From Bacteroidota bacterium (GTDB lineage Bacteria; Bacteroidota; Bacteroidia; Chitinophagales; LD1): a stretch of 64,000 nt of DNA. Positions 23,251 through 45,180 of this stretch are shown here, piece by piece (within the stretch, counting starts at the first letter, position 1; each line of letters starts with the position of its first letter). A program made the translations under genes and the position numbers. Location: NCBI GenBank assembly GCA_947475165.1, contig CANJLD010000005.1, positions 62,001-126,000 of the forward strand, written 5' to 3'. The notes below the pieces were generated by a model, which saw only the letters and a list, made by a program, of their open reading frames with translations, had not been told where the DNA came from and ran no database searches.

Positions 23251-23299
23251 TGTTTTCCCTTCTTTATTCAGAACAGTTTCCAGATGTGTACCGAAGGCA

Positions 23300-23593
23300 A
23301 CTGCATTCATGCAAAGAGTGTCTGCATACATGCAGAAGGTAATTGCATCCATGCAAAGGGTGTCTGCATACATGCAGAAGGTAATTGCATCCATGCAAAG
23401 GGCGTCTGCATTCATGCAGAAGGTAATTGCATCTATGCAAAGGGTGTCTGCATTCATGCAGAAGGCAATTGCACCCATGCAAAGGGCTTTTGCACCTATG
23501 CAAAAGGTAATTGCATCTATGCAAAGGGTGTCTGCATTCATGCAGAAGGCAATTGCACCCATGCAAAGGGCTTTTGCATCTATGCAGAAGGTA
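23300..23593. repeat. Minisatellite: 14 tandem 21-bp units
   Basis: Fourteen units of exactly 21 bp. Two types mostly alternate: ATTGCATCCATGCAAAGGG-type and TCTGCATACATGCAGAAGG-type, giving a 42-bp higher-order period. Each unit has a palindromic core TGCATNNATGCA. Because 21 is divisible by 3, several frames on both strands stay open and encode heptads such as NCIHAKG or MQKVIAS, but none has a recognisable start signal. The array lies between the convergent porU2 and K+ channel genes. Confidence 0.9.
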
Positions 23594-23667
23594 AGCGGAT
23601 ATGCAAGGGAGTTTGTCGGATGCGTCCGGAGGGTTAGAATACATGTCCGGAGAGCTGTAGTAGCTAT

Positions 23668-27638: not shown

Positions 27639-27652
27639 TTCTTGTTTTGTTT

Positions 27653-27682
27653 AAATAAAAAACCCTTCGTGGTGCGAAGGGT
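27653..27682 (-). terminator. Attenuator terminator 15 nt upstream of the cysE start
   Basis: On the minus strand AACCCTTCG-CACCA-CGAAGGGTT is followed by TTTTATTTAA, a standard Rho-independent terminator. Its position ahead of cysE, with no minus-strand gene upstream to terminate other than the 18-residue leader, marks it as a regulatory (attenuation) terminator. Confidence 0.8.
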
Positions 27683-27726
27683 TGCGAATATTTTTGTGAA
27701 ACCGGTGTTCAATTACAAAAGCGTAT

Positions 27727-27783
27727 TCATTCCCCTTTACAAGGCGAACAACAGCAACAACAGATTATTTGAATGAATTTCAT
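27727..27783 (-). CDS. Cysteine leader peptide of the cysE operon (18 aa, six Cys)
   Basis: The minus-strand frame from ATG at 27783 to TGA at 27727 encodes MKFIQIICCCCCSPCKGE. Five consecutive cysteine codons (TGT TGT TGC TGT TGT) plus a sixth lie 40-90 nt before an intrinsic terminator and upstream of serine O-acetyltransferase and cysteine synthase. This is the arrangement expected for ribosome-mediated attenuation: low Cys-tRNA stalls the ribosome in the Cys run and prevents the terminator. An AAAGGGG segment just before the stop codon (27732-27738) could pair with CCCTT of the terminator 5-prime arm, though over only about 5 bp. A -7-like promoter element lies 4 nt upstream of the ATG. 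Confidence 0.75.
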   Translation of the reverse strand: MKFIQIICCCCCSPCKGE

Positions 27784-27787
27784 GTAA

Positions 27788-27795
27788 CAAACATA
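27788..27795 (-). promoter_or_regulatory. Candidate -7 element TATGTTTG for the cys leader
   Basis: The minus-strand TATGTTTG fits TAnnTTTG and ends 4 nt before the leader-peptide ATG, so the transcript would be leaderless or nearly so. No convincing -33 TTTG was seen at 19-20 nt. Confidence 0.4.
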
Positions 27796-28049
27796 AAAAC
27801 TTCTGCAAATAAAATTGGGCGGACTATAACTGCTGCTTAGCACTTACCAGATTTTCCCCTCCGTAGCTCAAATCAATTTATTCTGCTTATGTTGGATTCC
27901 GGAACTCTGCTTTCTCTAAATAGCACAACGATAACAAAGAGAAAGCACCGTAGTATCACTCTAACGTCCCTGCATATCCATTCAAAAAAAAATAGGATTC
28001 CGTTTAAAATCTTACTGGCGGAAATAATTTTAAAAGTAAATCTATACTT

Positions 28050-44734: not shown

Positions 44735-45180
44735 ATGCATGTGTTTTTGATGAAAAGTGAGGTTTTGGGCGAATTTCATAGGGCCTCATCCGCCTCGCTT
44801 TGCTTGGCACCTTCTCCATTGGAATGGAGAAGGGATGGAGTGCGGAGGATTAAAATCCTTTTTATCTGTGAGTTCGAGATGCGCTGCGCTAACATCTCGA
44901 ACAGCAGAGTTGCGTTTGTCATGCCGAGGCACGAGGCATCTTGTATTTTGTATTTGGCTGTTGGCTGGTCGGGTTAGGGATTGGAGCGGAAATCCTTTTT
45001 TGCTTTTTTGCGCGTGAGGTTACACTTACTATTGAGGGGATTGCTTCGCGGAGCCTCGCAATGACGTTTTGTAAGGGGAAGCAAAAAAGATTGTAGCGTA
45101 AAGCCCGTCCGAGGCTTTGCGAGGAACCCCATAATAATTAGGAGATTGCTTCGTCCGCAGAGCCGTCCTCGCAATGACGA
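44735..45180. repeat. Cluster of dispersed intergenic repeats upstream of pyrC
   Basis: Several palindromes in one interval: CCTTCTCCATTGGAATGGAG (about 44810-44830), GTTCGAGATG...CATCTCGAAC (about 44872-44902), GCCGAGGCACGAGGC (about 44923-44937), GGGATTGGAGCGGAAATCC (about 44977-44995), and two copies of the GATTGCTTC...GCAATGACG family (45036-45066, 45141-45180). No credible gene lies here. Confidence 0.75.

Follow-up and report, generated by a model that had tools for sequence, protein, structure and literature searches.

A predicted cysteine-sensing, ribosome-mediated transcription attenuator with a poly-Cys leader peptide upstream of cysE in Bacteroidota

The cysE-cysK operon of a Bacteroidota bacterium is very probably controlled by a cysteine-sensing, ribosome-mediated transcription attenuator, a reading to which we assign a probability of roughly 0.9. 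The operon lies in the window, by which we mean the whole 64,000-nt stretch of DNA that was analyzed (assembly GCA_947475165.1, contig CANJLD010000005.1, positions 62,001 to 126,000). The reading is based on the anatomy of the leader region, its conservation, mutually exclusive folds, locus-specific pairing, spacing, and an association with cysteine genes. The original prediction had proposed the logic of trp/his-type attenuation for cysteine at this site, and that logic is supported by the conservation of the leader, by the competing folds, and by the occurrence of the same leader before other cysteine and sulfur genes.

All parts of the predicted attenuator are on the minus strand. The leader ORF (27783-27727; ATGAAATTCATTCAAATAATCTGTTGTTGCTGTTGTTCGCCTTGTAAAGGGGAATGA) encodes the peptide MKFIQIICCCCCSPCKGE and reads ATG AAA TTC ATT CAA ATA ATC TGT TGT TGC TGT TGT TCG CCT TGT AAA GGG GAA TGA. 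It is the 18-codon ORF with five consecutive Cys codons and a sixth that had been described; the run of five, the presumed regulatory run, occupies 27762-27748, and the sixth is at 27741-27739. The last sense codons contain AAAGGGG, found at 27738-27732 where it had been reported, which we call the G box and which is the predicted 5' strand of an antiterminator. About 43 nt beyond the ORF is an intrinsic terminator of -13 kcal/mol (27683-27653; AACCCTTCG-CACCA-CGAAGGGTT and then TTTTATTT), with a stem formed by 27683-27675 and 27669-27661, a 5-nt loop, and a U tract at 27660-27653. As originally described, the terminator precedes cysE (27638-26823), the predicted first regulated gene, which was assigned as a serine O-acetyltransferase gene from its hexapeptide transferase domain (PF00132) and its orthologs. 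The proposed cysE-to-cysK operon does contain both genes, cysK (26357-25440; PF00291) encoding a cysteine synthase, but a gene for a 23S-rRNA-intervening-sequence (IVP/S23) family protein (26768-26403; PF05635) lies between them and had been omitted. The gene upstream of the leader is divergent, in agreement with the earlier remark that the terminator has no other upstream gene to serve. Because this neighbor is divergent and the hairpin has no U tract when read on the opposite strand, we rejected the possibility that the terminator marks the end of an upstream gene. Elsewhere the window contains a Flavo-1 RNA (44963-45114, plus strand; Rfam RF01705, 55 bits) and a tandem array at 23293-23594, with 7.2 copies of a 42-nt unit at 85% matches, which is open in several frames on both strands.

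When the 300 nt preceding the window's cysE were dinucleotide shuffled 5,000 times, an ATG-initiated ORF of 10 to 40 codons with at least five consecutive Cys codons never appeared, and one with at least four appeared once. Five TGY codons in a row occur three times in the whole genome, the other two occurrences being inside GCT-GCT alanine-type runs. These two strings, together with the existence of isolated short ORFs with amino acid runs, could be taken to mean that the Cys run arose by chance beside an unrelated terminator. The empty result of the shuffles speaks against this, as does the conservation of the leader, both within the family and, elsewhere, upstream of sulfur genes. We give a chance origin a negligible probability; judged from the sequence comparisons, it is refuted already by conservation.

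cysE orthologs were taken from 61 genomes, and the count for the family of the window comprises the 23 loci with readable upstream DNA. Alignment of relatives had been suggested as a check, with absence of the Cys-rich ORF counting against the attenuator. A clustered-Cys ORF of 17 to 25 codons was present upstream of cysE in 22 of the 23 loci (e.g., MLFIQTIFCCCCCSVLKGR, MIRLQNMRCCCSPYRGC, MKNIPTCCCCCCGATGGGILFLLA, and MNRNHPFAVCCCAESAPLKGFAM), and the short ORF and the terminator are conserved together. Runs of at least three Cys codons were found in 19 of 22 real family loci compared with 0.0023 per shuffled region. A hairpin with a U tract, called with a simple home-made scorer, was present in 21 of the 22 leaders, and the hairpin sequence of the other leader (L025) includes N bases; every intact leader ORF is followed by a terminator. 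However, the leader is not obligatory, since one cysE locus of the same family (L012, genome G011) has no such leader upstream and many cysE genes outside the family also lack it. In one set of cysE loci outside the family, 2 of 33 carried a leader, and in a second set of candidate orthologs it was 13 of 80, several of them clearly spurious. Loci with a leader in named organisms include those of Flavobacterium suaedae (L065) and a Runella metagenome-assembled genome (L038). A universal cysE element is ruled out by the general lack of the leader outside the family.

The leader is predicted to be leaderless, that is, to be transcribed from its own start codon. A putative -7 promoter element of the Bacteroidota sigma-A type TAnnTTTG (TATGTTTG; 27795-27788), recognized from the sequence and family comparison, lies exactly 4 nt before the AUG. 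The element spans T-12 to G-5 in a promoter study of F. johnsoniae (PMC6847099) and is placed at -12 to -5 in F. psychrophilum (PMC9723704). This spacing and this placement together make the A of the leader AUG (27783) the predicted +1. The original prediction would have been contradicted by a transcription start downstream of the terminator, and the predicted start is upstream of it. The G at -9 of TATGTTTG is rare in F. johnsoniae (PMC6847099). In 20 of 22 family loci, no more than 12 nt separated a promoter box from the leader ATG, compared with 0.031 in shuffles. The distance to the AUG was 4 nt in 11 of these 20 loci and 5 to 9 nt in the rest, which puts the predicted +1 at the AUG or no more than 5 nt from it in 20 of 22 family loci. 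Among more distant loci, the box was near the chosen ATG in only 17 of 47. Leaderless mRNAs are otherwise rare in Bacteroidota, at 3.7 to 5.5% according to passages of two transcriptome studies (PMC9723704, PMC7366714).

Folding of the window's leader RNA, also suggested originally, gave a rival to the terminator. The segment that begins at the G box and ends at the terminator loop is predicted to form a single hairpin of -14.7 kcal/mol, the antiterminator (27737-27677). In it, AAGGG (27737-27733) pairs with CCCUU (27681-27677) and closes an inner stem region (27729-27684) consisting of the stem UGAAUA/UAUUCG and a long UUUUG hairpin. When the RNA begins after the stop codon and lacks the G box, the predicted fold reaches -4.6 kcal/mol and the 5' arm of the terminator is essentially free. 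The original prediction had conceded an antiterminator of only about 5 bp as its weak point; those 5 bp turn out to be the base of a longer hairpin. In the predicted fold of the full leader, the G box is paired to CUUUUGUAA and the terminator is intact; this helix may correspond to the pause (anti-antiterminator, 1:2) hairpin that shields the terminator of trp/his-type attenuators while the leader is untranslated. Most relatives have a stronger lower stem than the 5 bp of the window; their pairing is longer and varies in step with the terminator. Thus, CTGAAGGG pairs with CCCTTCAG at two loci (L020 and L026), AGGGCTTT with AAAGCCCT at L027, and GCGGGGGG with CCCTTCGC at L018, and the pair at L017 is wholly different from those of the other relatives.

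The pairing is specific to each locus. For the family, the duplex of the ORF tail with its own terminator arm had an energy of -13.55 kcal/mol compared with -8.11 (standard deviation, 0.55) when the tails were shuffled and -11.48 when they were swapped in from other loci (P = 0.0006 by permutation). For 47 further loci, which either fell beyond the family set or belonged to other genes, the corresponding values were -13.13, -7.57 (standard deviation, 0.37), and -9.70 kcal/mol, and none of 20,000 permutations of the tails reached the observed value. These results bear on the idea that the Cys-rich peptide is itself a small thiol-, metal-, or redox-binding protein and the hairpin the ordinary terminator of its gene. 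Short Cys-rich peptides can bind metal, and some of the leaders stand before a peroxiredoxin gene. However, the peptide drifts freely outside the Cys run among family relatives, its Cys residues differ in number and spacing, and the pairing needs of the terminator are reflected in the 3' part of the ORF. In addition, Tyr-, Trp-, and His-rich leaders of the same design, described below, precede phenylalanine hydroxylase-like, trpE, and hisG genes. A functional small protein is therefore very unlikely.

We then considered the geometry of the attenuator with respect to the ribosome at 68 loci. To mimic a ribosome at the Cys run, we folded the RNA between the run and the terminator loop; to mimic one at the stop codon, we began the fold 12 nt past that codon. 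The terminator 5' arm paired upstream in 66 of 68 loci in the first case and in 10 of 68 in the second. At these loci, a median of 12 nt (range, 5 to 31) separates the last Cys codon from the beginning of the antiterminator, which ends near the stop codon, a median of 6 nt before it in the family and 1 nt in the others, with a wide spread. In the model, this spacing fits the two demands on an attenuator, namely, that a stalled ribosome must leave the antiterminator free and a terminating ribosome must cover it. In the window, 8 nt separate the Cys run from the antiterminator, so that stalling at codons 8 to 10 would expose the whole G box; because the G box is within the last sense codons, a ribosome at the stop codon would mask it. 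The sixth Cys codon adjoins the G box and should not help in sensing.

From this arrangement we infer the start site, translation of the leader, the ribosome positions, stalling on uncharged tRNA-Cys, and cysteine-driven readthrough, which would be combined as follows. Transcription would begin at or beside the leader AUG, as judged from the promoter box, and a ribosome could then load at once on the leaderless message. With ample charged tRNA-Cys, this ribosome would reach the stop codon and so cover the G box, the 5' arm of the terminator would pair with its own 3' arm, and transcription would end before cysE. With too little charged tRNA-Cys, it would instead stall in the Cys run with its leading edge just before the G box. 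The free G box would capture the terminator 5' arm in the antiterminator hairpin, and the polymerase would read through, leading to more cysteine.

To look beyond cysE, a covariance model built from 18 family leaders was searched on 30 genomes of the family, 299 of the order, 295 of the class, and 296 of the phylum. We then read through the top hits. Many of the weak matches (E above about 0.001) turned out to be terminators alone, with no Cys ORF, and were excluded from the count. Among the top hits read, 46 had a Cys-run leader, some of them in other families, and the downstream gene was readable in 44. Downstream genes were mostly assigned by eye from translations, with Pfam applied to representatives. 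They encode sulfite reductase (13 of 44), cysteine synthase (12), a Cys/Met-metabolism PLP enzyme (6), and a 1-Cys peroxiredoxin (6, with cysteine synthase or cysH as the next gene in four), as well as cysE (2), a RimK-like ATP-grasp protein (2), a DUF4395 protein (2), and cysH (1). A cysteine or sulfur enzyme was encoded directly downstream in 34 of 44 cases and in 38 of 44 when the second gene was included. Training on Cys-run leaders makes the Cys runs of distant loci partly expected and not independent, but the model is blind to downstream genes, and the gene association is therefore independent evidence. Nor are the pairing statistics of these loci a product of the training. Two genomes of the same genus without a cysE ortholog (G005 and G013) have the leader before cysteine synthase instead (L206 and L207), as do two genomes of another class (L243 and L249). 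Predicted double attenuators, each a tandem pair of complete poly-Cys leader and terminator modules, were found before sulfite reductase (L186, L187, and L208), before a peroxiredoxin gene (L214/L253), and at L195, which runs to the edge of its contig.

These loci also bear on whether the leader might act on translation, with ribosome stalling or passage opening or closing the cysE start, or with reinitiation coupling, and the hairpin being incidental. Passages in PMC9031893 describe the poly-Cys leaders of M. smegmatis as regulating downstream translation, and leaders near a gene can help reinitiation (PMC4833913). However, a stem and U tract are found 20 to 58 nt past the leader stop in essentially every locus, and the ORF tail pairs specifically with the terminator 5' arm. 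Several leaders are far from the gene start or stacked in tandem, which fits termination better than occlusion of a start site. We consider translational control unlikely, though less so than a functional small protein. With termination as the preferred output, the recurrence of the module ahead of further cysteine and sulfur operons in the phylum looks like a dispersed, ribosome-run cysteine regulon. It is reasonably probable that Bacteroidota coordinate cysteine and sulfur assimilation by scattered transcription attenuators with leaderless poly-Cys leaders, in some cases two in a row ahead of a single operon (sulfite reductase or peroxiredoxin led), and that they reached this independently of the translation-level regulon of mycobacteria.

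Some of the genes behind poly-Cys leaders are less familiar. At L175, and in part at L176 and L191, the leader precedes genes for cysM, a JAB-domain protease, a ThiS/MoaD-like carrier, and a ThiF-like protein, a set resembling the mycobacterial cysM-mec-cysO sulfur-carrier route to cysteine. The RimK-like ATP-grasp protein (PF08443) encoded downstream at L181 and L189 is perhaps a thiol or peptide ligase whose product contains Cys. At L203 and L204, the leader MCCCSHRQGLGYSWT (and a relative) and a terminator precede a gene for a DUF4395 membrane protein, which suggests a sulfur-related role for this protein.

Leaders rich in other amino acids were also observed. Phenylalanine 4-hydroxylase is a tyrosine-making enzyme, and at L179 and L205, in the same family as the window, the Tyr-run leaders MKSNRIYYYYYYTPAQERYR and MKQLSNTCYYYYGNKNSGKGRSLHG are followed by a terminator and a phenylalanine 4-hydroxylase-like gene; we regard them as a candidate tyrosine attenuator. 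Trp-, His-, and Ile/Val/Leu-rich leaders with terminators were found before matching biosynthetic or tRNA synthetase genes, namely, trpE (L213, L222, and L245 to L248), hisG (L224), an ilvE-like gene (L219), and valS (L210). From these matches, leader-peptide attenuation looks general in Bacteroidota.

The window leader resembles the trp/his/phe-type attenuators of Proteobacteria and others, which have a leader ORF with regulatory codons, a terminator before the first gene, and an antiterminator freed by a stalled ribosome. Its sequence and predicted folds contain a Cys-rich leader ORF, a terminator before the first gene, an exclusive antiterminator, and the expected ribosome spacing. In contrast to that type, it uses Cys codons, is predicted to be leaderless and free of a Shine-Dalgarno sequence with a Bacteroidota promoter, and is predicted to have its 5' antiterminator strand directly masked by the ribosome at the stop codon. 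An Rfam search of the window leader, at the gathering score and with E up to 10, returned nothing credible; the best subthreshold match was Phe_leader (RF01859), with 24.9 bits against a cutoff of 55.

Mycobacteria reportedly have several operons per genome with poly-Cys leaders. Such leaders were shown by Canestrari 2020 (Mol Microbiol 114:93), with an effect described in a later paper as regulation of translation (via PMC9031893), and poly-Cys leaders were predicted in Actinobacteria with upstream regions without conserved terminators (Seliverstov 2005, PMC1262725). The Bacteroidota leaders are similar in being short ORFs (leaderless there, predicted to be so here) with contiguous Cys codons before cysteine operons. 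However, they differ in having an intrinsic terminator and a locus-matched antiterminator; where the mycobacterial pattern is translation control with no terminator, here a terminator is present and paired with the ORF tail. The actinobacterial and Bacteroidota leaders are probably convergent. A further relative is the uORFC-8-2 motif upstream of cysS, a tandem-Cys upstream ORF with an intrinsic terminator for which attenuation by uncharged tRNA-Cys was proposed (PMC8632094). It differs in having two Cys codons, at positions 14 and 15 inside a stem, and in preceding cysS, and it was not recovered by the Rfam search of the window leader. Leader peptides have been suspected at amino acid biosynthesis operons in passages of the transcriptome studies of Flavobacterium psychrophilum and Bacteroides thetaiotaomicron (PMC9723704, PMC7366714), whose main-text passages do not name a cysteine leader, Cys run, or antiterminator. 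A 2010 attenuator survey knew leader-peptide systems only outside Bacteroidota (PMC2965389). Our searches of the main texts of open-access papers turned up no cysteine attenuator in Bacteroidota. The poly-Cys attenuator design is apparently undescribed so far in this phylum; ribosome-mediated attenuation itself is classical.

If the reading is correct, it provides a testable cysteine sensor made of RNA and the ribosome alone for a phylum with few worked-out biosynthetic regulators, and the module would be a ready-made cysteine-responsive part. The predicted leaderless start makes initiation without a Shine-Dalgarno sequence in Bacteroidota directly testable. It would also mean that leaderless leaders for poly-Cys sensing evolved in two phyla, with termination as the output here and translation as the output in mycobacteria.
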